This document shows positions 26,001-49,109 of a DNA stretch of 64,000 bases, one piece after another (positions within the stretch are counted from its first letter, which is position 1; each line of letters begins with the position of its first letter). Location of the stretch: assembly GCA_025201845.1 (NCBI GenBank), contig MU603959.1:66972-130971 (forward strand), in the 5' to 3' direction. The notes under the pieces are model-generated. The model was given only the letters and a program-made list of their open reading frames with translations. It was not told where the DNA came from and did no database searches. The position numbers and the translations under genes are program-made. The DNA comes from Martensiomyces pterosporus (lineage: Eukaryota; Kickxellomycota; Kickxellomycetes; Kickxellales; Kickxellaceae).

Positions 26001-26503
26001 TGCACAAAGGCAGTGCAGCGGCACACGTGTCCTTGGCGCAGCAGCCTCTAATTGAGGCGTCGTGGGCAGAAAGCATGCAAAGCCTGGTGCCAAGCATCAG
26101 AGAAAGCCAGCACAGCAGGCGCATTTCTGCCAGCTGAAGAGGGCATAGGGTAACCAGCCCCAGGAGCTAGCAGCGTGCATACCGTCCACCCAGTGCTATT
26201 TTGTTAGTTGCACGCAAGGGCTTGATGCGACCTATGATGCGGCCATCCCACTTAGCCTGGGCGCTGTGCTTGATCGCCGCATATCCATGTGCCCACCGCC
26301 CACAAGTCTATGCCACTACACCGCCGGCTCAAGTGCAAAATTCGCGCTTTTGCCGTTTGTGCGCGCGAAAGCCACAAAACACGCCTCTGCAACCCCTCTT
26401 TTTTGTTTATTCGCTCTCAGGTGTCGGCGGGATATTGGCAGAACAAGCTAACAAGCAGAGCCATCTGGCACGTTGAAGAAAGGGCAGCCGTCACAGCAAA
26501 GAA
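23091..26503. promoter_or_regulatory. 3.4-kb gene-free region upstream of STE12 and PIG-X
   Basis: I see no convincing gene. Open frames up to about 170 codons occur on both strands but have the composition of random GC-rich sequence (Cys, Arg, Ser, His-rich) and no recognisable domain. The STE12-proximal part is purine-rich on the plus strand (AGAGAAAGAGAAAG), the mirror image of a pyrimidine-rich leader on the STE12 strand, so a long 5' leader is likely. It is one of three unusually long gaps in the window, all beside regulator genes. Confidence 0.5.
24154..24198. repeat. 12-base tandem repeat
   Basis: About three and a half copies of CAGCAGAGCCAC, the last one diverged. The unit is a multiple of three, but no convincing coding frame surrounds it. 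It is probably a small minisatellite. Confidence 0.7.
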
Positions 26504-28276
26504 ATGGCCCGACTTCACGGCAAGTTCAGGACAACACCAGCAGCAGCAGCGGCTGCTATCCTTGCCATTGCCGCATGCCCATTCGGCGCCGCGCTGTCCC
26601 ACTCAAACATGCACCGGCCTCCGGGTAGCCGCATAGCACTTACTTCGCCGGTATTCGAAACCGAGGAGCACATCATCTTTGGTCCTCAAGCCACAGCCAA
26701 GCCAATTGGCAGCGGCGGCAAAAACGAAGAGCAAGGCTGGAGTGTCGGAGTAAGCGGCGGCGGTAGCTGGCATGTATGGAGCTACGAAACACTGTTCGAC
26801 CGCATTGACCTGCCGCTATGGCCCGAAGCCATGAAGGAGGCCAGGATCGTTCTAAGCACCGACATGTGTCGCCACGACTCAACCAGCCCATTGCCCGCTG
26901 CTCCATTCATGCCTGCACCGGGTCTCGAGTACTGTGGCATACATGTCTCCGCTACATCGAGGCCAGACGTGCCGGTAGCTCGTGCGCACCACGACATGCG
27001 GAGGTGGATGTCGTCGTTCATGGGCTGGTCCCCGCAAGGCAAGAAAGAGGAAACCGCATCAGGCGACGCCGGTGATTCCGACGGCAGTGCTTTGGGCCCC
27101 GAGTCATTCATCGACCTAGGACGCACCAGCATCTACTACTTCCACCCATTCGATGCGCGTGCTTTGAGCACCCACAGGGGCAGAGCTGGCAAGCTGGACC
27201 TGGTGCGTTTTGCTGTGGACCCAGGCCACCATCTACGCAGGCTGATTGATCCACACGTTAACCGCAATGGAGGTAGCTGGTTGGACCAGCGCCGTATTGA
27301 AGTCCGGCTGTCTAGGACTCCTCATGGGTTTGTCAAAATAAACGCACAGGTGCTTTCGGTCATTGCGCCTGCTGAAGACATCTCGGTCTTGCCTATGGAG
27401 AACGCAACATCGAGCATCTCTTGGGTCAGTGCTGCCAGTAGCAGCCGGTCGTTCACGCTGCGGAGAGGACAGGAGCGCCCTGATCTCATTGTTGTCCCCG
27501 ATGAATTCTACACTCAGCAGCAGAAATTCTTGGGCACGGAGGGCGATGTCACTGAGAAGACAAGGGACCTGGGCTCCTTCCACCCAAGCCTGGAAATCTC
27601 GGGCCAAGTCGAGCACCACAGTGCGCAAGGCCCTGGCAAGGCGCTTCTCCAAGCAAAGTGCCATCTGGACACCATCCAGGTACTGCCCAGTACATACTTC
27701 TTCGACCCCTACCAGATCCACGATGTGCGTGAACAGCTCGGTGGCCCATACGAGCACTACGGGCCGGTTGAGCTTGAGAAGCCAGCCGAGGCGATGCAGA
27801 ACTGGGGCAGCATTCTGCGTATCTCTGCACCCAGCGCCGGGCTTGGCCGCCAGGCATTTAACGCAACCATCCCCATCCACGCGCGCTACCGCCTGCCTCC
27901 AGTTCGTGAGCGGACTGTGGGGTACAATGGCGAGCCAACCGAGGATACGCATGTGGAGACCGTCCTGCTTCCTGCCATCTCTGCCATCGTGTGTCCAACC
28001 ACCTCCGCAGAGCCCTCATTTGCGCTCTTCTCTCCAGCCAGGGGAAGCGTGCTGGAGAAACTGGCTGTTCGACCGGCGCTGTTTGAGGAGCTCGGAGTCG
28101 CTCCGGTAGCGGCACTCAGAGCTGCCCCTGAGAGCGATATGCTGCTGCGGATGGCCGTGGGCAGTACGCAGAACCTCGCAGTGATCCAGTCGCTGACGCT
28201 TGTTGCGCTCTTCGCGGGAACAGTCTACATTTTCTTGGCTACCAAGCGCGCAACCAGCAACCCACCAAAGCGCTAG
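26504..28276 (+). CDS. PBN1: PIG-X/Pbn1-type subunit of GPI mannosyltransferase I
   Basis: A single-exon 590-residue protein. The N-terminus is a signal peptide (MARLHGKF, then an Ala-rich hydrophobic core to about residue 30). The large middle part should lie in the ER lumen. The family signature is in the C-terminal third: LPSTYFFDPYQIHDVREQ, then GPVELEKPAEAMQNWGSILR, and IPIHARYRLP. A single transmembrane segment near residues 560-580 (LTLVALFAGTVYIFLA) is followed by a short basic cytosolic tail (TKRATSNPPKR). In animals and yeast this protein partners and stabilises PIG-M/Gpi14, which adds the first mannose to the GPI precursor. It is longer than the usual 400-450 residues because of spacer sequence after residue 130. 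It converges on gene A. Confidence 0.82.
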   Translation: MARLHGKFRTTPAAAAAAILAIAACPFGAALSHSNMHRPPGSRIALTSPVFETEEHIIFGPQATAKPIGSGGKNEEQGWSVGVSGGGSWHVWSYETLFDRIDLPLWPEAMKEARIVLSTDMCRHDSTSPLPAAPFMPAPGLEYCGIHVSATSRPDVPVARAHHDMRRWMSSFMGWSPQGKKEETASGDAGDSDGSALGPESFIDLGRTSIYYFHPFDARALSTHRGRAGKLDLVRFAVDPGHHLRRLIDPHVNRNGGSWLDQRRIEVRLSRTPHGFVKINAQVLSVIAPAEDISVLPMENATSSISWVSAASSSRSFTLRRGQERPDLIVVPDEFYTQQQKFLGTEGDVTEKTRDLGSFHPSLEISGQVEHHSAQGPGKALLQAKCHLDTIQVLPSTYFFDPYQIHDVREQLGGPYEHYGPVELEKPAEAMQNWGSILRISAPSAGLGRQAFNATIPIHARYRLPPVRERTVGYNGEPTEDTHVETVLLPAISAIVCPTTSAEPSFALFSPARGSVLEKLAVRPALFEELGVAPVAALRAAPESDMLLRMAVGSTQNLAVIQSLTLVALFAGTVYIFLATKRATSNPPKR

Positions 28277-28646: not shown

Positions 28647-31600
28647 TTAGCGGTACTGGCGACTCTCGCCGCCTCTGGCACGCAACAGGTTCTCCGCGGC
28701 CGAGGCAGACAGGCATCCAATGTCGGTAGCAGCAACCAGCAGCGTATACCCCAGCTGGATCTTTGATCTAGCCATCGACCCCGAAGACGCGTAGATGCCG
28801 CGCGGAATATGCCTAGCCTCAGCCGTCTGCACGATGGAGTTCAGGGCCGACAAGAGCCTGGGATCAAAATGCTCCTCAGCCGGTTTAATGCCCATAGACG
28901 CCTGCAGGTCATACGGACCAACAAAGATCGCATCGATGCCGCCAACAGATAGGATTTCGGGCAGGTTGCTCACAGCCTCAGCGCTCTCGATCTGCGGAAT
29001 CACCATGACGTCGCGGTTGGCTCTCTCCGAGTACTCACTCATTGCGGCTGGCCCTCTGATGCCAAACGCCTGTGGGGCAAAGAAGGCGCCGTACGAGCGG
29101 CTGCCCTCCGGCGGGTACTTGCACAGCCTCTTGACGCGCTCCATCTCATTGCGCGTGTTGACCATGGGAACGATGATGCCATGGGCACCGGCATCCAGTG
29201 CCCACTTGAACCACTCGGGAGAGTGCGAGGGAACGCGGACGATTGGCGTGCATGTGCCGCTGCTGGCAACGGCGGAGACCATTTCGGCCATGACCGACGG
29301 ATTGGTCGGCGAGTGCTCCATGTCGATGCACGCCCAGTCAAACCCCTGGGTGGCCAGGACTCGCGCGGTTATCGGGCTCGGGATGGTCAGCCAGACGCCA
29401 AACACTGGAATGCCGTCGCGCAGCCTCGCTTTGAGCCGGTTGTGCGGCACAGGTGGCGAGAAGGTTCTAGGCGAGTGTACGTGGTGCGGGGGTGGCGGCA
29501 ACATGTGCTGCTGCTGCGCCTGCGAGGGGCCTGGAGGAGGGCCCTGGCCAGGTGGGTAGTAGTGGTAGGACACCGAAGACGACGAGGGATGGTGGTGCTG
29601 GGGCGGAGGTATTCCCTGCGGCGGCCTAGGCTGCTGCTGGTGTCCCGAATGCGGCGAAGCGAATCCCATTTGCTGAGGCGATTTCACGGATGGGTGCATG
29701 GAAGGCGGAGGTGGCTGTGGACCCTGCATTGATGAAGACTGGCGAGAGTGGTGCTGCATGTGGGGAGGCGGAGGATGGGGGTGGGGGCCTGGGGGCATCA
29801 CGGAAGAGTGCGAGTGGCCGGGCGGCGGTCCCTGTTGGGTGCTTAATGAGGATGGAGGGCGCTCAGGACCCAGAGCGCTTGACGGGCCAGCGCTAGGCGA
29901 GTTTACACCTGCGCTCATCGAGTAGGCGCTGCTACTGCCTCCGCCGCGTGCATCTTGCCTACAAAGCAGAAAAGGGCTTGCGAAGAATATGCAATAAATT
30001 TGGCGATATTTAGTTGCCACATGCTATTTTCCAAAAAAAAAACAAATAAACGGGCAAACAACAAGGCGCATTCGGGTATATTCCATCGCAATATATGGAT
30101 CATATGCCGCCATAATTAGGGTGCTCAGTAGCCTCTCAATAGCAAAACACACACATCATGATTGGGTACTTGCCTCGAGTATTTGGCGTATTTCGCTCTG
30201 TGCGCATCGCTGGGAGATTCGTATGGCGCCGTATGCGGCTGTGGAAAGCTGCTAATGCCCAGACCACTAGTGGACACCTGCAGCTTTGACGGACCGCTAT
30301 CGCCACCGCCATATCTATCACCGCTGCCAAACCCTGAACCACTCTCCTGGCGATTAGCGCTGGGCGTATGGCCGGACCGCTTGGCCCTCCTTTTTGGGTT
30401 CTCCAGCTCGCTCTTTACGATTTCCAAGATGGGCGCCAGTGGCGGCGGGATATTATCCCTCTGCGGGCAGCTATGCACCACATGCCTCTTCATGTCGGCC
30501 GATTTACCCAGCATCTTCTTTTCGCACAAGATGCACTGCGCGCGATCCGTGTTTCCTGACACGCGCGACTCAATAACCTTGAAGAACCGCCAGACCGCGC
30601 CACGTCCGGAATTATACGACGAGTGGTAGTACACCATCGAATTGGCAGACATGGTAACCGGCCCAACTTCGCCTACCGGTGTATCCGAAGCTGCAGGAGC
30701 CGTGGTAGAGCGCTCCTGAGGCTTCTGCCGCTGCTGCAGCTGGCCCGAGGACGCCCTCAGCTCTGAATCATCAGGGTACTCGCTGTAGATATGGCGATGC
30801 CTGTTTTCGCTGCGGCCAAACTGGCTGCCGTGTTCCATGTCATCATCCATATCGTGCGGCTGTGGGGTCTCTGACATGCGGATGTCCTCTTCTATTTGCT
30901 GGTTGATGCTGGGGCTCTGCTGGAACTCGTACTCCGGCTGTCCAAACCCGTGCTCATCGCGAGGGCTGAATGGCGGCTCCGGGTAGTGGTAACGAGAACC
31001 CGTAGAGTGGCGCTGACTTTGCTGCTGCTGCTGCTGCTGCTGCTGCTGTGGTGGCTGCTGCTGGGACATCGGTGGATGGTTTGCGCGGTTAGGGCTGGCG
31101 AAGGTAAACTGCGCCTGCTGGGTCAAGCTAGACGAGGAGTACGACCTGTGTCGCGATGCAGCTTGCGGCCGCAAAGACGAGGTCGTAGGGCGGCCACTGC
31201 TAGTTGCTGGCGAATCGTTCCTCGCACGGTGCCGGCCACTACTGCCGACGCTTGACGATATCTGGCTATCCGCGCTCTGCTCCCTAACGCTACTCGCATG
31301 CCCAGATGGCCTGTGATGGCGGACGGGCTGGTGCTGGTGGTGGCGCTGGCGAGACACTGAGCCACTATCCCTGTACGAATCGGGCGTGCTGGCACCACTC
31401 CGAGCACTCCCGTCGTACGGCTGATCAAATTCGGACTGATCATCGTCGTCTATTAGAGGCAGTGGAGGTGGTGGTGGCGGTGGCAGCAGCTGCTCTTCTT
31501 GCTGCACTTGCTCTGGCTCAAGCACAGGCGATGGCGACATGCTGGGAGACGACCATCGTTTAGGCGCATCGCTTTGCTGCTCGACTGACGAGGACACCTC

Positions 31601-31783
31601 CTTTAGTACTGTGCCTGGCGCTGCCGTTGGAGCGGGGGTGCCTTGGTTAGTAGGCGATACAGATGGTGGTTTGTCGCTCTCTGAGGAGGCTGCAGTTACC
31701 GCAGCGCCAGCAGCAGTGGTCGGTGTGGATTTGACAGAGGCGTTGCTAGTCGAAGGCAAGTGCTCTGACTGATCACCCGACAT
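28647..31783 (-). CDS. Gene A: BED-type zinc finger fused to HpcH/HpaI aldolase (2 exons)
   Basis: Exon 1, 31783-30174 (536 codons plus 2 bases); exon 2, 29958-28647; joined product 973 residues. Exon 1 is mostly disordered and Ser/Pro/Gln-rich (polyglutamine near 31020-31050) but has a BED-like finger at about residues 394-438: aromatic VWRFFKVIESR, then CILC and HVVHSC (C-x2-C, H-x4-C). Exon 2 starts with a Pro/His/Gln-rich linker and then a complete HpaI-type class II aldolase, about 710-965: GVWLTIPSPITARVLATQGF, FDWACIDMEHSP (catalytic His), VRVPSH (catalytic Arg), YPPEGSRSYGAFFA loop, PQIES and FVGPYDL (metal-binding Glu and Asp). The aldolase family cleaves 4-hydroxy-2-oxo acids to pyruvate and an aldehyde. 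The fusion suggests a nuclear protein that also binds a metabolite. The alternative is two genes: there is no ATG for an aldolase-only product before MSAGVNS near 29920. Confidence 0.72.
29959..30173 (-). other. GC-AG intron joining finger and aldolase exons of gene A
   Basis: A 215-base intron with donor CGAG|GCAAGT and acceptor CTTTGTAG|GCAAGAT, preceded by a pyrimidine tract. AG|GCAAGT is the strong consensus of GC-type donors. The nearby GT (CAA|GTACCC) would leave the aldolase out of frame with this acceptor; the GC donor keeps it in frame and rebuilds an Arg codon (AG|G). If the intron is retained, translation ends after 16 extra codons (stop near 30125). Confidence 0.65.
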
Positions 31784-34700
31784 TTACTACAACACATAGA
31801 AGGATGATGAATGGCAGTTGGTGGATTAGAACGCAGCGCAGGCTTCCTTGGAAATGTCGTTCAACAAGCGAGCGAGGGAAGAAAGACGGACAGCATGGAA
31901 TTGCTTGCAGCTGTACGACTGAAGGCCGTGTGCACCGAAGAGGCGGGAGTGAGCGACTACGATAGCGCAACAAAGAAATGAGAGCTGTGCGGCAGAATAC
32001 ATTTGGGCATGCCGCTCCACAGATGGAAGGAGCGGGACAAGCCAGGCTCGAAAAAAAGCAGCTGGATCTGCATCATCCGCCGCTGCTGCCCTGCTGGCCT
32101 CAACCCACGGATACCTTTAGTACAGGAGTGTGCAGGCAGTAGGCTGGAGGAGAACAATCGGGAAAGGAGCAACTTCATTTGAGCACACAAGATAGGGGGA
32201 GGGACGCAAGGAGCTGGTGGGGAGGGACCTAGGAGTAGCGAGCGCTGTTTATGTGCTGCATGCGAAGAAAGCAACAAGGCGAGAGGTAGCGTGTGACCCT
32301 CGGCCACAAGGCCCAACAAAGCCTTGTATATATGCTCAGTGACAGCCTGTGAGCCTTGCCAACTGTACAAGGGGGGAGGAGGGATGCACTAGGTTATCAC
32401 TCACAATCGCCCGCATTTGTGGTGGGTGTGTGTGTGGAGGGAATGAAGGAGAAGGAAGCTGGATGGGGCATAGTGGTTATTGTGTCTATGCATCATCTCG
32501 GCAAATGTTATTATTAATAATAATAGTAACAATCGTTGACACAATGAGGACAATAATCATAAGGCAGGTAAATCAAGCGCAATAGCCGCCATATGCGATG
32601 GACAGAGGCAAGAGTGGAGTCCGCAGCCAAGCCCCCTTGTGCCGTCTTGCATACAAGAGATGCACCAGCATTGCCACGGAGAGGAACAAGGAGGCGAGTT
32701 TGGCGTAACTCGCCCGGTGCATCATTCCAGCCAGCAAAACATACACACACGCCAGCTTGAGCTGGGCTATTCACAGAAGGAGAGCGACGGGAGGCACGGC
32801 TAGCTGCTTTGGTTTGGGGGAAGCGCATTCCGCAGCTTGAGACTGGGCTGAGCGCGTTAATATTGAAGCGAGCAGAGGCCCAATATCCGGTATCATCTCT
32901 TGTTTGTTGCTAGCAATGGGAGCAGCCGGATAAGGCTGTAGGGGGAAACGGGCATGTCGGAAACCACAGTATGAAATTGGATGTTGCGATAAATTACCTA
33001 TTACTTCTGTGGGGCGTATTGGTGTTCGTTCGGCCGAGTATGTTTGTGCGTGTGTGGTAGCGAAGCAGAAGCGCAAATAAACAATGCGGACAGAGAAATA
33101 TAAACAGGTTAATAAACAAAGGCCGGCTAATTGACGCGACTCATCGGTGGACGTAAAGATACGCGAGTGGTTAAGCTGCGATGCGGACGCAGAGCAAGCG
33201 ACGAAACGAGAAAAAGAAATATGCAATTTTCGTGGAACTGGAGTGTGCAAGTGCGCAGGAACACTGACAATGTGCGTGGCACTGCTCACGGTATATATGT
33301 ACAAGCAGGAGAATAGGAGCAGCGGCGGGATATCAAGATGTGGTAGCGAGCAAGGACAGGGATACCATGTAGAGAAAAGGAAGCGCATCAGCAGCAAATA
33401 GCAGTAGCAGAGAAGAAGAGGTGAGAGGCAAAGGGGAAGGGGGAAAGGCCGTTCCTGCTCAAGCCTGCTGCTGCGCGAACAAGGCTGCTTTGCTGGTGCC
33501 GGTGCCGGTGCTGGCGTGACGACTTTACGAGTGACTTTTTTTTTTGGAGAAGCAAGGCGTGCGGGCTGTGGCCAGGGAGTGCACGCTTTACGCAGCGCTG
33601 AGAACGAACAGGAAAAAATTTGTGGATGAGTGGAGCATAGCCGCTGATCGCTTCTATCTGCAATAACTGTATGGCTTTTGTTTTCCACTCCAACTCGTAC
33701 GCGCAGGCAAGAAACACCGAGCGAGCTGAAGTGGACGGGCTCCGGTTTGGGTGGGGCGGAGTGGGAGCAGAAGGGATCTGCGACCAGCAGCAGCCGCGCT
33801 TGCCGGCTTGGGGGTGCGCGCGCTTATCAGAGGGTTAAAAGTAATTGCAGAATAGCGCGGCATCGTGCCACAGAACGGAGCTGTGCGTTATGACGGCGAC
33901 TGCCGCTGCCGCTGCCGCTGATTCCAGGCAAGGAGATATGCATGCATACATGAATGGAGGTGTGCGCGGGACTGGTCACAGCTGCCATTGTTTTCCTTTC
34001 GCACGTCGACTTGCGGAGCAACATTGCAATTGGCCACACAGGCGACACGATAATCTCTTGGCCGAGGGGCCGAGCGGGCAGAGAGCCAAGGCAGAGGGGA
34101 AGAAGCAGTTATTATTGGCACAGGCGAAAATAGCCCACCAGCTTTTGAGGCGCAGACGGACCGCAGGCCGCGAGCATAACCCTGCTGCCCCCTTTTCCGC
34201 TCCCTCAGCGCCAGTTGGCGAAAAGCCGAGCTGACTAAGCCCGGCGGGCTGAGCCAGCAGCGCCTGAGCTCTGCACGCCGCTGATGTGCAAAAGGGGTGG
34301 AGCTGAAGGCAACGGGGGAAGGGGTCCGCTGTCCCAAGCCATTGTTGCGGCGCACATGCAAGGGGGCCTGCCGTGGCGCCGTGCTTACGCAAAGAGAAGG
34401 CGAATAAGCGGGACGCGTGGGCGAAGGCAACGTGCCAGCATGCCTTCTCCAGCTGCCACAGTGAATGGGAGAAAGGGCGCCGCCTTGTGAATCTGCCCTA
34501 TTTTTCTGGCAGATCGACGTGTGATCGATAGCATAACGAGAGCGGGGCATTTGAATGTCACCAAGCAGCACACGAAACAACCCACACTGCTACACCCAAC
34601 CAGAAGCTGCAAGCACAGGCACAAGCAACAGGGATATGCATGCAAGCGCTGTGAACTCCTGAGGTGGGTAGGCTGTGCAAGCGCGGAGCGTGCATTTGCA

Positions 34701-36889
34701 GCTCCGACACGCAGGCAAGGCAAGCGGGCAGGCGCCGCTGTTGTTGGGGCAGGAAGGGCGCCTGTGCTGTGGGCCGCCAGATTGCCGTAACAAGCATGCC
34801 AAGAAGGCAGGAAGGAGTGGAAGGACGCATTTGTGGAGAGGCAGACAAAGAGGGCGCATTGTGCGAGGGCCGGCATAGGGATGCAACAGAACAAGCGGGC
34901 AGGTGGCTGGCGGGGTCCCCTTCTTTCCAGGGGGTTCTGCTGCACTTTTCCATACAAGCTGGGCAGGGACAGCCCAAGCCGCATTCTCCTTGCTCCCCTT
35001 GCACCCCCTGCCCTTAGGAGCAAGCAGACCAGGCTGCTGTGCTGATTCTACACAATTACCAGTAACCCCTATGGCTGCCCTGGCGTCTGAGCGCCATTTA
35101 AAATGAATGCGCGCATGGAAAGGAGGCGCACTGCTGGCGCTGTGAAACCGCGCGCTTAGCAGGAATGTTTTTTTTTTTTTGTGCAGCGGGCGGAGTTTGA
35201 AACCCTTGGCCCTGCCCACAGCACCACAGTTGATTGACAGGCTGTGGGTGCTGGGCTGAGCTGGGCTGCCAGCTCCATGGCGAATGCGGCCCTTGGGAGC
35301 GAGAGTAGCGTGTGCATGCAACGGGCGGCTGCATGGCTCAGTGGCGGCTCTGTTGTCCATTTCCCGATAAAGGGGGGTCTGGAGGCGGATACAAGCAAGA
35401 GCGCGGATGAAAGGGAGCGGCAGGGAGTGGCTGCCACGTATCAGAACCAGCACCAACAACCTTGTTTCTTTCTCCTTTGGGCCACAGCAGAGGTGCTGGT
35501 TCTCTGAAAGGAAATCACAATAGGCATACGATGGCGAGATGGAGAAGGCGTCCAGGCAGAGCGAGCCCGGAGCTGGGAATAGAACAGTAGCAGCAATGGG
35601 ACAATAGAGCGGATTGTACAGAGAGCGATGCTTACCTTGCTATTATGATTTTAATATGCTTGTATATGGAAATGGAATCGCCGTCTGGGGGAGAGGTGTG
35701 CTCGTGTATGGAGCAAACAAAAGAGAGGTTGGTGTGTATAGGTGGAGGAAGCAGAATGGACGCACCCAAATTCTGAGGCAGGTAGCGAAGAAAAAGGAGG
35801 CTCCTGGGAGAGCTGCTCTGAACGTGTAAGACTAGGAGGCTGGGGGACCGTTTGCGTGTGTCCGGGTATCTGTGACTAGCCACGCCTTGAGTGAGATGGC
35901 AAAAGGGGAGTGGAGAACGGCTTGGCCTGCGCAAACACAAAAATGCGTGTGTGGCTGTGTAGAAAAGAACACGAGTATGGAGGAAGGAGAAGAGTATGGC
36001 GATGGGAGCAAGAAATATAGATGGGGTTATATAGATGTGTATGTATATAAATGTGTACGCGCAAGTGGTGCATCAAAGGGGGGACAAGTGAGGTTCCTTA
36101 TAAAACTTGGCAGCGTGTTGTCTGTGCATGCGCTGAATTACTGCCTCCAACGCCTGTGCCCTGGCCACATATGGATGTGCTTTGTAGTGTACTCTCTAGC
36201 ACCCCCTGTGGACAGGATGGAGTTCGGGTGGCAAATGGACCTTTGCCAATGGCCCCTGTAGCCTGGCTGCGCACGTTCAAGACTCTAGCAGGCAGCCCAC
36301 CCCACACAGCTGGGTGGTGCAGATGAAAGGTAGAGCGAAAGAAACCCAAGCGAATGGCTGGTCCCTGCAAACAGGATATAGAAAGCAGTACCGTATCGAG
36401 AGCTGTAAAGCAGCCTGTCACGTATGGCGCGTATCTCTGCGCAGGCGGGGCTGTTAGATTGGAGCGCACTAAATGCAAAGAAGAGGCAAAGGGAGAAATA
36501 GTCCTACGCGAAGCTGTTTTTTCGTGCAATGGAGATAAAAGGGAGAGCTTGGTGGACAGGACGCGTCCTGGGATGCGCAAAAGTGAGAAGGAATAAATAA
36601 AGGGACCATGGCAGCGAGGGTGCCTGCTGCCTTTTTGATTTCAAACCCCGCTCCCAAATGCCAACCCACACAACACCTCAGCCCTGCCAGAGTCACTCAG
36701 ACTACTAGCACAGCAAGCCAAAAAAATACATAAATAATCTTCTGAGGGTGGGGGTAGCCTGCCTCTCCTCGTCCCCACCCTTCCTGTGCTTTTCATACCC
36801 GGCTCTGCTTGCTGATGCAGGTTGGCCGTGGTGGCCGCTGCCGCCGTTGTTGTTTTTTCTTGCTTACTTGATTACCCATTCCACCCAGC

Positions 36890-37123
36890 ATGTATATTGT
36901 ATTTGTAATGCTCGTAGCCATATGCCTGTGCGCGTGTGCGTGTGCCCAAGCGAACCTGCCGCCCGGAGATGCGCGGCTTGCCCACCCTCGTTATCATCCA
37001 CTTCTGCCGTTATCCCCCCACCTGTCACAGGCAGACACGCCCGGCGCCAGCTGGTATTCCTACCATGACCACGCTGCTCCACTGCACTTGCCACTGAGTG
37101 TGCCCTGTGGTTCGTGCCCGTGA
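36890..37123 (+). CDS. Possible small secreted protein, 77 residues
   Basis: An ATG-started frame just after a pyrimidine-rich leader-like stretch. It begins with a signal-peptide-like segment (MYIVFVMLVAICLCACACAQ, possible cleavage after AQA), followed by a 56-residue Pro/His/Leu-rich stretch ending in PCGSCP. Part of the hydrophobic core (CACACA) is encoded by a GTGCGT simple repeat, so chance is a serious alternative. No family is recognised. Confidence 0.2.
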   Translation: MYIVFVMLVAICLCACACAQANLPPGDARLAHPRYHPLLPLSPHLSQADTPGASWYSYHDHAAPLHLPLSVPCGSCP

Positions 37124-38298
37124 GCACCATGCATCCTCCACTCCCCCTGCTGACTGCGTGGAAACACACAATACCCCAGCAGGTCCTGTAATGGTTAGAT
37201 GTGCTCAGCACTTTGCCATTGCCATCGGACACGTGAACTCGCTACATGGGAACGCTCGAGGTAGCGACAGTGGTCACTGCCTGACACGCGCAACCGCAGT
37301 CTACATCTAACCACCTGTCGGACACGCTGCTTCCTGGCGCTATTTTCCTGCTGGATCCGCCCCGCCTCCCACTTGGGCTTTGAGGTCGGCAAATTGGCGT
37401 GGTCCTGCTGGGCGGTCCTGGTGCCACGGAAACAGCCAGAGGAGGGTGGCCTCTGCTGCCACTCCATGCATCCGCCCTTCCGGAGAAGTGTCTGGAAAAG
37501 AAAGTACGCTGTGTGCTGCTTCTCCACACAATGCTTGTCTTGCCTCGCTCTCAAAGCAACGCGCATTCTTTCTCTGTAGGTAGATCTGAAAGCGGCGTCG
37601 CTCCGCATGCACGCTCAGACGCAGCACCCGCGGCAGCCCGCCATGCCCCTTGCTCGAAGCCCCCCTCACTATTACTGGTACCTTGCACGCCCATGCACAC
37701 AAGCATCCATTACGCCTCAGAGCGGGCGCTGCAGCGACAGCGCGTTCGCTCCGTGTTTATTTCTCACCCGGATCGCCCTGTTTCAGCAGCCCTCGATGCT
37801 GTTCCTCGCCAATGGGGGCCGAGGGATTGGCGTGCATCCCCTTTCCCTCCGCACTAACTGTAGAAACACATTACTCGTAGGAATCCGTATCAGCAAAAAA
37901 GGCATGCAAATGGGCGCCTGCAGTCCCTCCTTTGTAAGGAGTAGTAAGGCGGGGGATGTGTGGCTCCCAACCTGTCTGAGGTGTAATGAATGGGGGACGG
38001 TGTTTATATCCAGAAATGCACCAACCCGTGTGCACAAGAGCCATTGTGTTACTGTGCCGCTGTGAAAACCGTCTTGCTGCTGTCGCCGCATTCACACAAA
38101 GAACCGCTTGGCGCCAAGAGGAAAGCCTGGCCCTTAACGGCTTGCGCAGCGAGAGCAGTTGAACGGCTGACATGCAAAAGCGTATCCACCCCATGTCAGA
38201 ACGAGTAACCTGTGCCGCCTGCCCCCACCCTGACTTGCACGCAGTCTAATTACGCACAGCTAAATATTAAATCGAACATAAGCTCGGGCTTGATCCTT

Positions 38299-38322
38299 GA
38301 AGTGTGAACTCGTTCACACTTC
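38299..38322. promoter_or_regulatory. Perfect 10-base inverted repeat with CTCG spacer
   Basis: Arms GAAGTGTGAA and TTCACACTTC are exact reverse complements separated by CTCG. It lies in a locally AT-rich stretch of the large gap. It could be a dimeric operator or a short RNA hairpin. Confidence 0.6.
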
Positions 38323-38406
38323 CCAATTTGGAACTCACCAATCGCTATTACATCCCCACCCGCATTAAATACCTACATGCTCCAAAGCCAAAATCAGCCC
38401 CTACAC

Positions 38407-38442
38407 TATAAAACGGACACATGCATATAGTGATGCACTATA
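38407..38442 (+). promoter_or_regulatory. TATA-like element followed by a 7-base inverted repeat
   Basis: TATAAAA at 38407-38413 is followed at 38426-38442 by TATAGTG-ATG-CACTATA, a perfect 7-base inverted repeat. It could mark the start of an unannotated plus-strand transcript. No protein gene follows closely. Confidence 0.25.
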
Positions 38443-39973
38443 CGCTGGCAGCTATCCGCCAGCGCTTACATTATACTCTGTGTGCAGCGACACTTTGAAA
38501 GATGCATGTAAACAGCAATCATGCGATTCCCAGCAGCCGCTTCGAAAGAAAAAGGATGCTGCACCCTTTGGAGGTTTGTCCTTTCGGTGTGACATGCAAA
38601 ACAACAAATGCGGCACTCGCCGGCTGCCGGCCATCCTCCTTTTGGCTTTTTCATTTCATTTTGATATATATAGATCTACCAGCTCACCAACCTGTTCATG
38701 TATCTCTACGTAATTGGCCAGCCAAAAAAACATAACATCCACTAGTTAGCTTGTTCCGCCAGTGACACCCGCGGAACATATGCTCACATACCCCCCAACA
38801 TGTCAAGTTCACTCAACAGCAACAGACATATCCCACCTGGAATGCTCAAGCAAAGGCGGCGGCTGCTGCCATATACGCCTCTTATCTCGACAGCATCGAT
38901 ATGTGCCATAGATGGCGCATCACCGGGACAATACGTGTGGAAATAATTGAGCAGGCAGGAAAACAGCGCACATTGGCAGGCAGCGGCCCCTTTCTCGTGA
39001 GATGCAGACGCGTCTGCTGTGCTTGCGATGGAATTAGCTGGCCCTGCCACCCTCCCCATCCTCAGCACCCACATGGTTTAATTAATGTACGAGATACATG
39101 TATATCCTCCCAAAAGCAAGTGTAGCAGGAGAGAGAACGAGACGTTATCTGCGGATACACACACACATACACGCAGCATTCCCAGCACCACTAGAGCATT
39201 TACACGTATCCGTGTATGCAGCATGTATCATCAACTGTAATCACCTTCTTCATACACAATGCGCCTAGCACGTCTTCCACATATAGCGTGTCTGGTTCTT
39301 TCGTTTTGCACATACCTCGAATGCATATGCCAAGTATGACAGAGCGCACATGTATCCCGCCCACGCCATCTGTAGTTGTGTGCGCCCCCTTTTGCTCAGC
39401 ACAGGAGAAAGGTAATCAGGATGACCCCCGACATGTGATACTGGAGCGAATGCATTGCTCTGCTGCACATGCACGCTGCTCAAAACCTCCGCCAGCACAT
39501 CCCCGCTGTCTCGTTTAGGGTCTTAGCCTCAATTGTAACCCTCGCGGATCATGGGAGAGGAAGGACGTCCGATGGTGGGAAAACAAAGCAGGCAAAGTGA
39601 AAGGGCACGGAGGAGCGCACTCTGCCTGCTCCGTGTACGCGAGTGACTTTTGTCGAGTGCTTCTTCATGTACAGGACACTCCGGATTACAGAAACCTAGA
39701 CAGTCATAGAGTCAGCTGAAAAGGGAAGGATGGGGAGCGAGCAGCATGTGTCGGCCCCCACCAGCGCCATTGCATTGTCCGCCCTTTGCCGTGCATACCC
39801 GAACAGCATTCACCACCATCCGCCGTAGCTCACACACCTCGCCATTGTGAATGTAAATCAAATCAAATCGGTGGATTTGGAGGCGCAGTGCGATCCGCTG
39901 ATCAAGAAACCAATATTTAGCGTGTGCACTTTATTTGAAGGCACGCATCCATGAAGGATATTGCGCCGGAATA

Positions 39974-41316
39974 CTAGTGGCGTCGCTTGCGCCAGTCATT
40001 GCTGTCAGCGCCTTTGCCTCTGCTCTTGTCTCTGCTCTTGTCTCTGCTCTTGTCTCTGCTCTTGTCTCTGCTCTTGTCTCTGCTCTTGCGCTCGGTGCGC
40101 TGCGGCGGCGTTGGGCTTAAGAAAGCGACATGCCGCTCCTGCTCCAGTTGTGGCAGATTCTCGATGGCCACAGTGTCGCGGAATGCAAGCCATGGACTGC
40201 GCTCCATGTAATCGACCAAGCTCTTATACTCGCTCTTGCTACTCGCATAAGCCTCCAGGTACCTTGCGAGCTTGAGCAGCTCATAGTCATCCGTGGTCGA
40301 CTCATCAAAAGTACTGACCAGCAGGTGATTCCCCCGCTGTCTCGCAGCCTTTTCATGGGAGTCATCCACAAGCGCGATGTTCTCCAACGTCCACCGATTC
40401 GTCTCCAAATCGGGACAAACACCTCTGTATCCATCATACGTGCGGTAGATGTTCCTATAGGGGGACTCCTCTAAAGTAAACCCGTTGGAGATGCGCGTAA
40501 GGTCCTTGATTGTTTCCGCCTTCGTGTAGTATGCCGCGTCCAGTTCGCAGAACCTGCGATCCCACACGCGCACCAATTCACTGCCCATTCCGCCGAACAA
40601 TAGCTCGATCATGCTGAAGACATTGAGAGGTTGGGTGGAGCTCCACACCATGACGCCGAAATGGTTCAATATGGATCTCAGGAACTGATGCATGAAAGGC
40701 CGGGGGAATGCGTATCTGACGCCAGACGACGTCCTACCGGAGCGTCTAAGCAGGGTGCCATTCAGATCCAGGACAATCAGCTCCCTGTGCCTGCATTCTC
40801 GCTCGTTGCGCGTGAGGTCGTAAGGAATCCAGGAGTCCCTCCATGACGACGATGCCTTTGGTAGCATAACACCTCTATCTAGGGTGGTTCGGCCGACGAT
40901 GGCACTCTTGCGGTCACGGGATTGCATTGATTGGCTGGTGTGCTTCCTGCTCTCGTTCTTCTTCGCCTTCTTGCGCTCCTTCATCCGCTTGCGCTTCTCC
41001 TGCTGCCTCTTTTCCCTCATCTCGGCGTCAGTATGGCCCGAGGCGCTGCCAGCCCCTGGGTCTGTAGCAGCAGCTGGCGAGTTGGCCGCTGCATCATTCG
41101 GCAGCTGGCTCTCGACTGGAAGTTTTCTGTTTCTGAGCCGCGGATTCCTCGCATGGACTGTTCCTGAATCGACATCAAGCCGTGAGGTCGAACCTGCTTC
41201 CTTGGCGGCGCTCCGATTGCCAGCCACGTCGCAACCGCTACCGCTCGCTACACTGCCAGCAACAGGCCAATAGACAAACAAAGAGCAAGGTTATCACCAT
41301 CGCCAAACTGACCCAT
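39974..41316 (-). CDS. FCP1-homology (NIF-type) phosphatase-like protein with DLNGT motif
   Basis: The main exon encodes a basic N-terminal region (REKRQQEKRKRMKERKKAKK), then an FCP1/NIF HAD-type domain of about 220 residues: VLDLNGTLLRR, the RPFMHQFL and VMVWSSTQPLNVFSM blocks, VWDRRFC, KDLTRI and LVDDSHEKA. The HAD motif I is DxNGT instead of DxDGT, so the second Asp (general acid/base) is Asn; I recall such DLNGT proteins as a known fungal subgroup. The C-terminus is a tandem RDKS repeat. The main frame has no upstream ATG: either translation starts at 41020 (MREKRQ), or a 19-base first exon (41316-41298, MGQFGD) is joined by a 50-base GT-AG intron (41297-41248), which is in frame. It lies alone in the large gap. 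Substrate unknown. Confidence 0.72.
40018..40091 (-). repeat. 12-base tandem repeat encoding RDKS units
   Basis: About six copies of TCTGCTCTTGTC on the plus strand, encoding five RDKS units at the C-terminus of the FCP1-like protein. The copies are nearly identical, so length variation between strains is likely. RDKS/RS-type repeats are common in nuclear, RNA-associated proteins. Confidence 0.85.
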
Positions 41317-42378
41317 CTAGTAACGAGCAATATCAGCAATAGCAAGTACATGAAGGTGGCTGGGAAGAGTCTGAAGAAAAAAAAACAGCAAGGGTGCGTT
41401 TTCGAACCCTTGGTTTCATGCCGCTACTGCTTTTCCAAGAAAAACATTTGATCGCAGGGGGCAAGGGGGTGGTTCCAAAAAGGCAAGGAAACGGCGCAGC
41501 TGTGCAAGGAAAACACCCGAGCAGTAGACAGGGAGGGGAGAGAAGCAAGACGGCATGGCACAAAAAGAGAAAGGCATCTGATGGCGTAATAACTCTGGCC
41601 TGGGCAAACAATAAGAGAATATGCAGCTGATTCTTCAGGGTATCTTTTGTAGAAAAGCCATCCAAATTCATCCAGACACGCTGCTGCCCATCTCATTCGC
41701 TACCCTCTCCTAGTTGCTTACATCTCCTATGGGCATTCTGGCAGAACAACAATGGAAGCAGCGTGCTGTGCTGCTCCATTTGCACAGCAGGCGGACAGCG
41801 GTGTAGCAAGCAAGGCGAACGAGGCTTGGCTGCGGAGGAATACCTTCCAGAGCCTTTGCGACAGCAGCAAACAAGGAGCAATATGACGTGAATAGCGCCA
41901 CCAAAAACAAAAGCCATTGCAAAAGGAGTTCTCTCTTTCTCTTTTTTTGCCAAGACGGAATAGGGGGTATTGAGCACAAGCACGTGTGTTCCCGATCCAT
42001 TATGTTGCTCGGTACGTTATTCAGTGGCTCTAATCGATTGTTCAGCTCTGAAGACAGGTGCGATTGGGATATTTTAGGCCCGCAGCCCCTTTTGTAAAAA
42101 GGGGGAGGGCAAGGTTAGATGTAGTGGAAAACAACAAGGGGCGGCCGTGATCGAAGAGGGAACAACCGCAAGCCACTTTTTGCCCTCCTTCGAATTTATT
42201 CATCTGCCAGGCACCCGCTTGCCCAGCGATCGATTGTACTCCAGGGCACCCATTGGCAGAGATGGAACGTGAATACTACCACTGCGAGCCTGCTTGGATG
42301 CACTGCTGCCAACAAACAAGCAAACAAACGGTACAGAGGGACGGGGGAGGGGATAGGGCGGATGCACTAACAAGCAGC

Positions 42379-42398
42379 GCCGCACATATATGTGCGGC
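42379..42398. promoter_or_regulatory. Perfect 20-base palindrome followed by T7
   Basis: GCCGCACATATATGTGCGGC is self-complementary over its whole length and is followed at once by seven T residues. It contains CCG-N12-CGG, an everted half-site pair of the kind bound by Zn2Cys6 dimers, and could alternatively form a hairpin plus T-run in RNA. Confidence 0.6.
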
Positions 42399-45300
42399 TT
42401 TTTTTGTGTGTGAAAACAACTGTGCAGCTAACGAATAGCACACGCAATATCGTGCCCTATGGTGTATGTGTGTATACATGGGCAGATGCGTGTGCATGCG
42501 CATATATCTAGTTGGGGGCGAGATGGTTGCCCAACAAGGAAGCCGAAGATTCCGCCGCATTGACTGAAAAAGCGAATTCATTACAGGCATTTCATGAAGT
42601 GCAGAGTGACTTTCATGTGCCTTATGTTTATCATCAGCATAAAAGGGTGCTGTTTCTGGAGGGAGATAAGGAGTCGCCACTTGACGACAACAATACGTCG
42701 ACAAATTCTTTGCATTGGGGGAGATGTGCAGCGGCAGCTGAGAAACAAGCGCGAGTGCGCAGTTGGGGGATCTTCTCTTGCTGCAGGCAATCGAGGTGGT
42801 TGGTGGGGGAGAAGCAGATGCACTATGTGCATTGGTACGCTCTAAACGAGAAAAAGCAGCAATCTGCCTTGCTATTGTAGATTTGGGAGCGTACCTCTCG
42901 CTGCCGTTGCTGTTTCTGCTACTGCTTGCTTCTGTTGCGGGCTGCTTGAGGCCGGCCGATCGTTGTATGGCGAAAAGAGAAGATGCTGCGCGGAATTTGT
43001 CCGCTTCCACAGCCTGTCCATTCTATGGAGGCGCTGCGATCCTACTGCTGCGGCAGCTTTGGTTCTTGCACAGATGATAAACAACGTAAATAAAAACGAA
43101 GCAGTGCGAATGACCCGTCTATGTACTTGTTCGTGCCAAAAACGCGGCGGCAGAAAGCAGCAGCGTGTGAGAAACGGAGTGTGAGTAGGCACGAGGTATA
43201 CGGGGGGTGCAGCTGCTTCAGAAATGCGCTGTGCAACAAAAGCATGCCTGGCACGGGATGCGCGTATGGGTCCCTGCACTTGTTCACGGACCAGCTGCTG
43301 GCCATGACCAAAGGAGCCACCACAGCAGCACCAGCAAATCTACGCATCATGGGCGCCGCAGATTTAATCCTCATGCCGGCTGCTGAATGACGGCACGGAT
43401 GACAGGCTCCCTGCCAAGGGCTCTGCTGGCCGCAAAAGTGACTGAACGCGGGCTAAAAATACCTGGATACAAGCCATAGCCTCAGCCAGACAAGGTGGGG
43501 ACAATCGAGCGCAAGCGGCGCTGGGATTGGGGGAAACGGATTATGTAGGAAGGGTGGAGCTGTGAGGCTGGCCAATGGCAAAACAACCCCTCATCTGTTG
43601 CCTCGCCCAAACCAAGACGCCGCACGCACGCATGCATGGATCATCTGCGTAGGGACTGCGGCATATAGTGCCGGTGGTTTTTGAAATAGAAGCTCGCTAT
43701 AAGGGTGTGTGAGGCATGCCAATACATGTGATGGGGGCGTGGCGAGAGCAGCGGAAAAGTCGGGAGAGTGGTTATGCAGAGTATGTCTGGAGCACGCTCA
43801 GCATTGGCAAATGGAACAGCGGTATCCTGTGAGGGACAGCTGATTTCTGGTGCCTGGCGCTTCCGGTGCGCAGGGGAAACAGGCAGCTCTCCACATATGC
43901 AAGTGCGCACACAAACGTAAAATTGGAAAGCACCCAATGTCGCCGATGAATGGGCTTGTTTTTTTTTTTTGGAGTGCTCTTCGCTACAACTTGGTTCCGT
44001 TGCTGCGCACTGCTGGCGAGGATGCGTGCCGTTGTTGAATTGAATGCAGGCTGGTACAATTGCAGATGCGTTGTAGACGTGCGCTGACGAATACCGTTTG
44101 CAAGCGGCAACTGTGAACGGAAGGTGATTTGCAAATTAGAACGCAACAAAACGCCCAAGTGGGACTATAGCAAGAGCAGGGGGTGCTTGGGGCATGCAAA
44201 CGGGTGCGCTACGATATATTTATAAAATAAAGGTGTGTTCGCATCTGCGGCCGTTTGCTGGTGCATGACACGGACTCCAAAGACTGTTTATAAAAAGGAC
44301 AAGACAAGCACGGAAATTTGCAATTGGCTGTTGAATAAGTGGAGCGTCCATGTACACAAAAGAAATTAGGCGTATGGGCGCAACGCAAATGTGTCGCTGA
44401 TGCTGACCCGGAGGCATGACCTGGGAGCAGAAGCAATGACCCGGTTGGAACAAGCAGGCTCCTTGGGCGGATAGGAGAATCAGTGCATCTCGCCTGCAGC
44501 CAAGCTGTACGGGAGTGAGGACACGAGGCTTGTCTTGAGAGTCGGTACTCGCTATGAAATCCTGCACGCACGCACACAAAAGCCTTTGACTGCTGATTCC
44601 ACTGCCCGCATGCGTGGATCCTGTCGCTCCTGTGCTTCAGGTGACACACTGATGGTCCCCTCTGGCGGCGGTGCAGCATGCGTGTTGCTTCTTTGGCCTC
44701 ACATTGTCCTTCATCACGGCATGACCAACAATAACCCCATTCACGATACCAACACAAGCCCATCTCTATTTTTAAACGTCTATATTTTCGTTGCTGTTTT
44801 TGTTCTTCTCGGGCGCACCTGGGATGCGTGTGTGCGTCAGCAAGCCCTGGTGGGCGTGCATGATGTACTGTGAGTGCTTGCTGCCGCTGACATGAGAAAT
44901 AGAGTGTTAGGGTGTTGCTTGCATTGTGGGGGCGGGGAGGGAGAGCACCCGACTCGAGTGAACAGCGGATCGCCTGTGGGTCATTCGCCTTGACGGATGA
45001 GGACCATGTGCAGAGCACCTGGCTGCTATGCGAAGGAAATCAAGAGTGCACTGCCAATAGCAAGTCACATCCGGGAGCAAGCCTGTAAACGGCCCCAGGC
45101 AAATTAGAGTTTTCGTCCAAGTTAGCTAGAGACAACAAAAACACGCCGAGGGCAAGGAGGGCAGCTACTGGCAAGACTGCAGCCTGCGCAGCTAGTTAAT
45201 GCGCTTAGTATAATGTAAGAAACACAATCTGCAAAGATATACTCGGCAGCTAGAGCCAACGCTGAGAGCTAGCACAATGGAATGTATGCATACAAGGGGT

Positions 45301-45878
45301 GAGTTGGCTGGTTGGCTGGTGGCCGGCGGCGAGCTTGGTGGCTGCGTAGGGCGAAGAATAAGAGGGAAGGCAAAGAGCGAGACTTGGCCGGCGCGCCAAG
45401 CACGGATGGGCGGGAGGAAGGGGGCTGCGAATGCCTCTCCATTCATCCCCAAATAACGAGCGAGGCACACCAGGGAAATAAATCTAAGCCAGACGGCCAG
45501 GAGCAGGCATCCCTCCACTGCCATTCCAAGATCACGTACATAGTTGCGGCAGCCAGCTGGACAATCGAGGCTCAAAAAACGCTAGCTGCGTAGCTGTGCT
45601 TTATCTCGCGGCTCCTCGTAGAAAAAACGCACGCAGGCTTTTTTGGGGTCGAGGGCTGGCTGCAAGGAGGGGGGGTGACCAAAGAGGGGGGTGTATCATC
45701 AGGTCTTTACTGAAGGGAAAAGTAAACCCTTGTTTTTTTCGCGATCGCCGGCAAAAAAGGTCAACACTCGTTTTCTGCGCCCACCCGTTGCACCCACCCC
45801 CTCCTTCGCCGAGCTTCGCTCATCTGCCACATTCCACACATCCACTCGACGCTTCTCTGGCGGTTGAATACGCCTGGG

Positions 45879-46408: not shown

Positions 46409-49109
46409 ATGCCGTCCCACAGCGATGACGACATGCTTGCCTCGCCCGAAAAGCCCATCAAAGTAGTGCTGGAGACTGACCCGCCCGCGCGCAAGCCCGG
46501 CCGCCCGCGCCTTGGCATCTCCTCGCACTTCCAGGACACTGGCGAGATGGCAAACCACAGCCATCGCTTTGTCTGGTGCATCGCATGCATCAAAAGCGGC
46601 CGGCCCATGTACAAGAAGGACCGCCTGCCTGCACGAGGCGACCTGATGCAGAGGCATTTGCTGTCGTGCAAATACGTCGAGGAAGACGTTAAGCAGCGCT
46701 TCTGCGTCTCCCCCAGATCCAGCTCGGCGTCTTCTGCGGGTGAGCTTCGACCCAAGAAGGCTCGAATTGCAAAGTAAGTGGCTACTCCCCGTTCTCGATT
46801 GCACAAGCCCTTGTACTGCATGTAACTCCCTGTGATGAGATTGGCGGATGCTGCGCCCTTCCTTCTTGCCATGTTTGCCAGTCCTACGGCCAAAACAGCC
46901 GCTTTTGTCGCTTTCATGTGCAGAGAGTTGCATATACCTGTGGCAGCTCCCACTCTCCTCGATCGATCTTTGCTGGAATGTTCCGCCCTCTGCTGCTCAC
47001 TGTGAGCCTTTTGTTCTTGAAACCAGAGGTCGGTGATGCTGGTTCCACAGCATCTTCCAATTGTTCCCACGCGTACAAATATGGAAGCTGTCATCTCACC
47101 ACCTGCAGCCCCATGGCTGTCAGCGAAGAATAACCTTTGTGCTAGCTTCTGCTGCGCGCATCTCCCCTGCTACATCGCCATGCCTTTACCAGCCCTCTCC
47201 CTGCCTTGTGCAACACCCCTACTGTTTCCACATCTTCCTCCTTGCCCCCAATCGACGCGCCCCATCCGCCCGCACATCCCCAGACTCACTCGCTTTGGGG
47301 GAGGGGTGCAATCGATAAAGCGCCAGTTCGCATAAACGGGCGGCTGTGGCGATGCATTTGGGAGTCCCTGGATAAATTTATCCCGAGAAATCTTCGGCAG
47401 CTGAATTGTTGGGCTCTCAGTCGAGCTCCAGGATGGAGACCGCCGCACCCGGGCTTCCTCGCAGCTCATACAGCTCTTTGTTTGGCCGCATTATTCACCG
47501 CTCCTCCTTGGGCCCCACACCCACACCCACACCCACACCCACACCGCTTCTCGCTCTTGCCAGCCTGCTCGGTCGTTCGCGATTGCTCGCATTCGTGATC
47601 CTTTAATTTTTCCGGCTAGCTGGCCAATTGACCCGTCATAGTAGCTGCATCTGCGCAACCAGGTTTTCGGCACCGCCCACGTTGCTAACCATCACCTTTC
47701 AGTCTGCTCATCCGGCTGATTTATTTACGCTGTGTAGTATCATCTCCGAGCCTCTCCCGATGAATATCTCGCCAGTACACACCAACGTGCATCACCACCC
47801 TATTCTGCCGCCAATCGCCTCGTCTATCAGCCAGGAACCTGCGCCCATGCTGATCTCCACCACTCGCAGCACGCGCCCTCCGCATTCGCACCCGGGCCAT
47901 CCCCCGTTCAATAGCCCCAGTGGCAGCAGCAGCGGAAACAGCCAGCTGCTGCGGTTCAACTCTCCGCCCCTGCGCTCTGCAGCTTCCCTTGACCTGCCGC
48001 CAATTTCGCATCGCTCACACCCCTACCACAGCGGCAGCCGTGGCTCGCACACGCCCACGTCGTCCATTCGGCCTCCACTGCCAATCCAGACCCAGGCACC
48101 ACAGCTGCCATCGCTCTCGCTTCAGCACAACACCCGCTCATCGCCCTCATCGGCCGGCAGCGGCATTACTGGCGGAATGGCCACATTCCGCATCTCGCGC
48201 AACTCTCCGCCCACACTCCAGACTAGCCAGTCATCGCCAGCCGCCAGTTTGTCGTCCACCAGCACGCTGCGTGGCAGGCTGCAGAGCGGAGCCAACGCCT
48301 ACGGCATTGTGCTCAGCGTCCCGAGCCCCGTTACAGCACGCATTGCCTCTACTCTAGGATTCGATTGGGCCTGCATCGACATGGAGCACTCGCCACAGTC
48401 GGCCAGTATCATGGCTGAGATGGTTGCTGCCATCACCAGCTCATCCAGCTCCTGCACTCCGCTGGTTCGTGTGCCGTCGCATTCTGAGGAGTGGATCAAG
48501 TGGGCGGTGGATGCTGGTGCACAGGGAATCGTCATCCCCGGTGTGCAGAACAAGGACCAGATGTGGCGCCTTGTGTCGCTGTGCAGGAGCGCAACGCAGA
48601 GCCTGTCAACGCCTTCCGCTGCTGTATCTACGTTTGGGCATGGCCAGCCCCGCCGCGTCCCCTCCTATCAGCACGCGCAGCCGCCGCTCTTTGGGCACGG
48701 CAGGCATAGGGATTCGCCCGACGCTGCCGCTGTGTCTTCGCCCTCCACTGCTGTGGTTAGCGACATTATGGTTATTCCCCAGATTGAGAGCACCGATGCA
48801 GTGGCCAACATTGACGACATACTGTCAGTTCACGGAGTTGATGCGGTGTTTGTGCGCCCGCAGAACCTGTCCAGCGGCCACTCGCCTATGCTGCCGGCCC
48901 AGATGACGGGCGGTGCGGTGTCTGGCTCATTGGGCCACGTCATCAGAGCTGCACGGCACTTTACGATCCCGCTGGGCATCGACTGTGCGGATGGAGATGC
49001 GGCTAGAATGAGAATACAGCAGGGGTTCCAGATGGTGGTCGTGGCCAACGACGTTGACATTCTTGCCTCGGCAGCCACGGATCAGCTAAACAGAGCGCGG
49101 TCGGCGTAA
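46409..49109 (+). CDS. Gene B: zinc finger plus HpcH/HpaI pseudo-aldolase (2 exons)
   Basis: Exon 1, 46409-46773; exon 2, 47738-49109; joined product 578 residues. Exon 1 has an AT-hook-like RKPGRPRL (about residues 28-35) and a finger of type C-x2-C, H-x4-C (HRFVWCIACIKSGRP, LPARGDLMQRHLLSC; about 50-90). Exon 2 begins with a Ser/Pro/His-rich linker, then an HpaI-type aldolase fold from about 300: SVPSPVTARIASTLGF, FDWACIDMEHSP, VRVPSH, DAGAQGIVIPG, IMVIPQIES. Compared with gene A, the YPPxGxRSYG loop is replaced by about 60 Ser/Pro/His-rich residues, and GPYDL reads RPQNL, so the metal-binding Asp is Asn. Catalytic activity is doubtful; ligand binding or dimerisation may remain. An aldolase-only product from ATG 47761 is the alternative. 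It is a paralogue of gene A on the opposite strand. Confidence 0.7.
46774..47737 (+). other. Long intron between finger and aldolase exons of gene B
   Basis: A 964-base intron, donor GCAAA|GTAAGT (strong), acceptor CTGTGTAG|T with a CTGAT branch-like motif about 20 bases before it. The phase (2 bases carried over) matches only this acceptor; the tempting TTTCAG at 47702 would break the frame. If not spliced, translation stops at the donor itself, giving a 122-residue finger-only protein. It is much longer than other introns here and could hold an internal promoter; an unseen middle exon cannot be excluded. Confidence 0.6.
47514..47545 (+). repeat. (CCCACA)5 simple repeat
   Basis: Five exact CCCACA units plus CC within the gene B intron. 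It is a hexanucleotide microsatellite. Confidence 0.9.

Follow-up and report, generated by a model that had tools for sequence, protein, structure and literature searches.

The closest described precedents for the genes reported here are the fungal repressors QutR/qa-1S and GaaX, AROM-derived proteins whose activator counterparts are the Zn2Cys6 proteins QutA and GaaR. In the accessible parts of two reports, QutR and GaaX appear as enzyme-derived regulators that are probably inactive and are thought to bind inducer, which for GaaX is proposed to be 2-keto-3-deoxy-L-galactonate (PMC10512348, PMC6528562). We analyzed a 64,000-nucleotide window of Martensiomyces pterosporus, part of a 164,783-base contig in a 17.4-Mb genome, containing two genes, A and B, that invite comparison with these systems. 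The likeness would lie in fungal regulators built from enzyme domains and in module genes standing side by side. Whereas the enzyme-like part of QutR and GaaX is a separate repressor resembling the last three AROM domains, genes A and B each carry a zinc finger and an HpcH/HpaI barrel on one chain, and Pfam detected none of those three domains in the frames of either gene at E ≤ 1. By analogy, A and B may work like QutR and GaaX, yet they are not members of that group.

A second point of reference is the HpcH/HpaI class II pyruvate aldolases (HpaI, GarL, RhmA/YfaU, SwHKA). Genes A and B share their barrel fold, and gene A shares their active-site His, Arg, Glu, and Asp; both differ by an N-terminal finger and a low-complexity linker of more than 200 residues, and B additionally lacks the metal-binding Asp. 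AbHpaI handles KDGal, a compound of a kind akin to the GaaX inducer, and uses Glu151 and Asp177 with Glu46, His47, and Arg72 (PMC8560999), while in SwHKA the metal is held by Glu145 and Asp171 (PMC11194214). The initial annotation of the window regarded a finger joined to such an aldolase as an undescribed class, and among the papers listed by our search of the open-licence literature none, by title or abstract start, describes the combination. The step from enzyme to regulator is an already known idea; it is the domain combination on one chain that this search did not find in print.

Gene model and evidence for fusion

Gene A occupies positions 31783..28647 of the minus strand (Table 1). That its exons join in frame, as the initial annotation proposed, is borne out: the joined translation is 973 residues long with zero internal stops across a 215-bp intron. 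The splice is of the GC-AG type, which refines the earlier model, and falls in phase 2, after 1610 coding bases. The encoded protein consists of a low-complexity N-terminus, a BED-type finger, a basic cluster, a low-complexity linker, and an HpcH/HpaI barrel. A PIG-X/PBN1 gene, identified by Pfam at window positions 26477-28276 (+), converges on gene A.

Table 1. Positions of gene A and gene B features in the window.
Feature	Position	Strand	Detail
Gene A exon 1, low-complexity N-terminus and BED-type finger	30174..31783	-	536 codons + 2 nt; open frame 30125..31783
Gene A BED-type zinc finger, residues 397-440	30464..30595	-	C417-x2-C420-x13-H434-x4-C439; PF02892
Gene A basic cluster KRRAKR, downstream of finger, nuclear-localization-like	30377..30394	-	4/6 columns invariant in 13/13 aligned rows
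Gene A intron	29959..30173	-	215 bp, GC-AG, phase 2; donor GAG/GCAAGT, acceptor TTTGTAG/GC
Gene A exon 2, P/Q/H/S-rich linker, aldolase, and stop	28647..29958	-	frame 28647..30023; coding score best of three frames from acceptor onward
Gene A HpcH/HpaI aldolase core (PF03328)	28806..29402	-	131-133 bits
Gene A His752	29313..29315	-	aligned with SwHKA active-site His
Gene A Arg778	29235..29237	-	aligned with SwHKA active site
Gene A Glu861, metal ligand position	28986..28988	-	aligned with SwHKA Glu145
Gene A Asp887, metal ligand position	28908..28910	-	aligned with SwHKA Asp171
Gene B exon 1, AT-hook-like motif and C-C-H-C finger	46409..46773	+	tblastn of P0014, P0016, P0017; donor AA/GTAAGT
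Gene B AT-hook-like RKPGRPR	46490..46510	+	sequence; invariant in 7/7 aligned rows
Gene B finger C57-x2-C60-x22-H83-x3-C87	46577..46669	+	four ligands invariant in 7/7 aligned rows
Gene B intron, phase 2	46774..47737	+	GTAAGT ... GTGTAG; 365 coding bases before (from coordinates)
Gene B exon 2, linker, diverged aldolase, and stop	47738..49109	+	open frame 47607..49109
Gene B HpcH/HpaI domain (PF03328)	48324..49067	+	88-91 bits
Gene B Asn498 at metal-binding Asp position	48864..48866	+	Asp absent in 9/9 B rows

We consider gene A very probably to be one fused gene. A protein search restricted to lengths of 0.55-1.75 times 973 residues, which excluded short ordinary aldolases and drew on the 7995 candidates sharing most words, gave 26 matches. 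The combination of finger and aldolase that the initial annotation had suggested looking for in fungal proteomes was present, with the gene A architecture, in 13 of them (P0001-P0013; 12 from Coemansia and one from Mycoemilia). A chance join or an assembly artefact was rejected on the grounds that these 13 proteins of other species share the domain order.

The frame favored by the coding signal shifts across the proposed intron. A codon score, for which nine long frames in the window served as training set, was highest in frame 1 over almost the whole of exon 1 and in frame 2 downstream of the acceptor; all three frames were negative in scoring segments wholly inside the intron. Several segments in the linker were weak, two of them slightly below zero, and the segment straddling the acceptor (30040..29920) scored 0.12 in frame 1. 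Exon 2 opens at the acceptor with 12 residues that precede its first Met, and these match the residues following a KYSR/RHSR motif in the fused relatives. This comparison covered 11 of the 13 fused proteins, P0003 and P0013 being without the motif; in four of the 11, the junction score is unequaled elsewhere in the linker, and in the other seven 1.3-7.3% of positions reach it.

The competing account, which we find quite improbable, is that of two separate, adjacent genes, one for a BED-finger protein whose end lies close to the donor and one for an aldolase with its start within exon 2, the fusions being gene-finder errors repeated across Coemansia. Some public models fit it: P0027 (LPJ63_000384) ends at KYSR and P0032 (LPJ63_000383) is the neighboring aldolase, forming a split pair; a Met lies three residues past the motif in 11/11 Coemansia rows compared, and P0030 and P0034 start there; and P0028, a public model on the window's own contig, starts at MLPPPPHHV. 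Among the fused models, the partial P0003 is in another frame just upstream of the junction, which also suits separate genes; P0001 starts within the finger. However, that Met is missing in the window, where the residues from the acceptor to the first Met still match the relatives. The stop after KYSR in P0027 is probably attributable to a GTAAGT donor. P0033, P0066 (identical to part of gene B), and P0112 start inside a domain without a Met, which suggests models limited to the homologous part. In addition, the 541-residue Mycoemilia model is fused as well, and gene B shares the architecture with a conserved junction of its own.

Fifteen aldolase-only rows (P0028-P0042) were assigned to the A type by identity to the window, in a search whose length limits excluded fusions; the counts of fused and unfused gene A proteins come from searches with different length limits and are not comparable. 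Eight of the 15 lie on contigs below 5 kb and may be cut, and the other seven (P0028, P0029, P0031-P0035) are on long contigs. The fusion proposed by the initial annotation is supported by same-architecture relatives, junction residues, and coding signal, against several public gene A models that are unfused.

The zinc finger of gene A

Zinc fingers of the zf-BED type follow the pattern C-x2-C-xn-H-x3-5-[HC] with an aromatic start. The finger of gene A fits this pattern, with C417, C420, H434, and C439 as ligands and an aromatic VWRFF start, in agreement with the C-x2-C/H-x4-C finger first read from the sequence. The match to PF02892 hovers around the cut-off of 20.6 bits: 17.1 bits for the whole exon-1 frame, 20.5 in the genome search (21.3 with neighbors), and 21.1 for the finger region alone. 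Scanned as isolated finger regions, all 13 family fingers of the gene A type match zf-BED at E ≤ 1, and among three full-length relatives scanned by Pfam the domain is listed only in P0013, at 15 bits. As judged from sequence, the BED match of gene A is weak. Its aromatic start, C-x2-C ... H-x4-C arrangement, and Pfam match resemble BED-type proteins, from which it differs by the weakness of that match, the C-terminal aldolase, and the absence of a transposase part by Pfam. A transposase-derived origin of the gene was rejected on the last point. Downstream of the finger, the KRRAKR cluster is a candidate nuclear localization signal.

Neither the gene A nor the gene B finger has a match among solved structures when its profile is compared by sequence, at E ≤ 5. 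In the AlphaFold 2 (AF2) model of P0013, the finger forms a helix, a short hairpin, and a helix, with pLDDT block means of 45-60 for the first helix and 80-87 for residues 141-180; it has no fold match among the best 50 of 1748 matches. A protein search for the gene A finger apart from the aldolase gave two matches from 17 candidates (P0013 and P0027) and missed seven known fused relatives within its length range (P0001, P0003-P0006, P0009, and P0010), which makes that search uninformative on rarity. In the genome itself, each of the two fingers is matched in full at a single place, inside the window, and weakly and in part at one other. A short frame, L014 (G000:C17:694-789, +), contains C-x2-C, H, and C together with the string AVHSCPARH and shares 41% identity with the gene A finger across 32 residues (E 0.005); it may be a relic or a chance match.

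A second zinc-finger-aldolase gene

The window holds another gene of this kind, gene B (46409-49109, +), missed by the initial annotation. Its joined frame encodes 578 residues without a stop. The junction codon AA/T gives ARIANIISEP, and ARIANIISE across the junction is identical in four of seven relatives and carries a few changes in the other three. The B-type combination of finger and aldolase accounts for 7 of the 26 protein-search matches. The AT-hook-like RKPGRPR has no Pfam AT-hook match, and the gene B finger matches zf-BED in none of seven members and no Pfam family.

Genes A and B are divergent and 14.6 kb apart, and one of six frames scanned between them has a Pfam match, an NIF-type phosphatase. 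Relatives in Coemansia carry both genes under nearby locus tags: GGF46_003551 (A) and GGF46_003549 (B) in RSA 552, and LPJ63_000383/384 (A) and LPJ63_000386 (B) in RSA 2711. Upstream of the two genes, the long stretches 31784-39973 and 41291-46408 gave no Pfam family in five scanned frames and are possibly large control regions. ArgJ is the sole small-molecule enzyme among 19 neighboring frames scanned, and the neighborhood thus gives no hint of a ligand through a shared pathway. Reading through the gene B donor (46774) meets an immediate stop (AAG TAA), and reading through the GC-type donor of gene A (30173) adds 15 residues; intron retention in either gene would, by sequence, yield finger-only proteins.

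Active sites, fold, and phylogeny

Both barrels score well above the PF03328 cut-off of 25 bits (gene A, 131 bits; gene B, 88.5 bits). The His, Arg, Glu, and Asp that the initial annotation assigned to the gene A active site correspond to His752, Arg778, Glu861, and Asp887, which align with the active site of SwHKA (PDB 6r62, whose chain numbering is the printed numbering plus one). All four residues are kept in 18 of 23 A rows, the window included, and in 9/9 comparator rows. Calling the aldolase intact thus holds for the window and most A rows, and does not extend to the five that lost a metal ligand: Asp in P0010, P0011, P0012, and P0038, and Glu in P0037. Because P0011, P0012, and P0038 form one clade in the tree, these losses amount to about three events.

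Gene B presents a different picture. The metal Asp is absent in 9/9 B rows and Glu is replaced by Asp in three (P0015, its near-copy P0016, and P0112), while the pocket His is kept in eight (lost in P0022) and the Arg in all nine. By fold gene B belongs to the family; by its residues it is not an active aldolase. The active-site counts leave aside the partial or short P0033 and P0039-P0042. P0020, P0021, and P0023-P0026 have other architectures and entered none of our counts; P0021 fits a loose finger pattern with a different finger. Precomputed Pfam assignments place HpcH_HpaI beside WD40-type domains in P0020 (Arthromyces matolae), PF00501 in P0023, and PF03446/PF14833 in P0024.

The (beta/alpha)8 HpaI-type barrel fold is supported by AF2 models of the relatives P0013 and P0014 rather than of the window proteins. 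The barrel of P0013 is confidently modeled, and its fold search returned HpaI-type aldolases first, with target-TM values of 0.80-0.91 for the best 33 of 1748 matches. The B-type P0014 also retrieved HpaI-type aldolases, at target-TM 0.69-0.74 and rmsd 5-9 Å for the first 35 matches listed.

Pairwise identity was compared with P0001, P0003, and P0112 set aside. Twelve A rows gave 66 pairs, 56 of them with higher identity in the finger than in the barrel; eight B rows gave 28 pairs, and the finger was ahead in all 28. The finger is the best-conserved part of gene B. In the remaining 10 A pairs the finger is no more alike than the barrel, and between the window and Mycoemilia identity is 0.47 for the finger and 0.55 for the barrel. 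In a tree with 12 relatives from outside the Kickxellales, including P0044 (Ktedonobacteraceae), a branch at 100/100 sets A and B together apart from the rest, and B forms one clade, also at 100/100. Adding two ascomycete rows and others lowers the A + B split to 96/76, with long branches meeting there; descent of the barrel from bacteria is only a lead. An AU test did not discriminate between placements of Mycoemilia with respect to the A and B types (p = 0.188). Profile comparison did not show common descent of the A and B fingers (probability 0.3%), so one fused gene may have duplicated or the aldolase may have met two fingers.

Proposed function

The reading we lean toward, with modest confidence, is that A and B are nuclear zinc-finger regulators in which the aldolase barrel serves as a ligand-responsive oligomerization module. 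The finger, the conserved basic cluster, and the low-complexity linkers together look like a transcription regulator, and a domain that persists while losing its metal site resembles a sensor or oligomerization unit. In such a protein, the finger, aided in B by the AT-hook-like motif, would bind DNA, the basic cluster would take the protein to the nucleus, and the linker would recruit partners. The barrel would assemble like HpaI enzymes and bind a 2-oxo acid or 2-keto-3-deoxy sugar acid, and ligand on the barrel would alter how the protein contacts DNA or recruits partners. The A protein may still convert its ligand; B would at most bind it. Against this reading, 18 of the 23 A rows keep a full active site that an idle sensor would not need, the gene A finger is a weak BED match absent from the best 50 fold matches, and the gene B finger is without a Pfam family. 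The unfused gene A models, the lack of a pathway clue among the scanned neighbors, and the 10 A pairs whose finger is no more alike than the barrel also count against it.

The initial annotation had left two options, a metabolite-sensing regulator and a chromatin-tethered enzyme. We prefer the former because B lost the metal Asp in every row and has the finger as its best-conserved part. A tethered aldolase that makes or removes pyruvate or another keto acid locally at chromatin or in the nucleus, with B as a decaying copy, is unlikely in our estimate, even with the four catalytic residues kept in most A rows, the window among them. The metal-ligand losses among A rows speak against it, as does the finger kept in all three loss rows with a finger in the record (P0010-P0012); B itself does not look like a copy in decay, since Coemansia, Dipsacomyces, and the window all keep it and its finger is very conserved.

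We hold it improbable that the barrel is purely an oligomerization scaffold for the fingers, with no ligand. HpaI enzymes are hexamers (PMC8560999), and the A-conserved stretch YPPxGxRSxG, a loop, is low-complexity sequence in B, both of which would suit a scaffold; the pocket His and Arg kept in nearly all B rows go beyond what a bare scaffold needs. A more elaborate scheme has A and B forming a mixed enzyme/pseudoenzyme hexamer. Aldolase active sites can sit at subunit interfaces, as in SwHKA (PMC11194214), and B could for that reason complement or cap A; two kinds of finger would then bind two DNA elements, the inducer would be both sensed and cleared in a self-resetting metabolite switch, and retention of the phase-2 intron could make a finger-only competitor. 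We regard this scheme as quite improbable.

Conclusions

Because relatives share both genes and B lost its catalytic metal site, the sensor-type regulator reading suggests that a metabolic enzyme was recycled into a gene-control sensor. If true, metabolite sensing and a DNA-binding module have been united in a single polypeptide in an early-diverging fungal order. The enzyme-like and pseudoenzyme copies near each other, with active sites that range from intact to lost, would provide a natural series on which to test the conversion of an enzyme into a gene regulator, and would offer a handle on metabolite-controlled transcription in Kickxellales.
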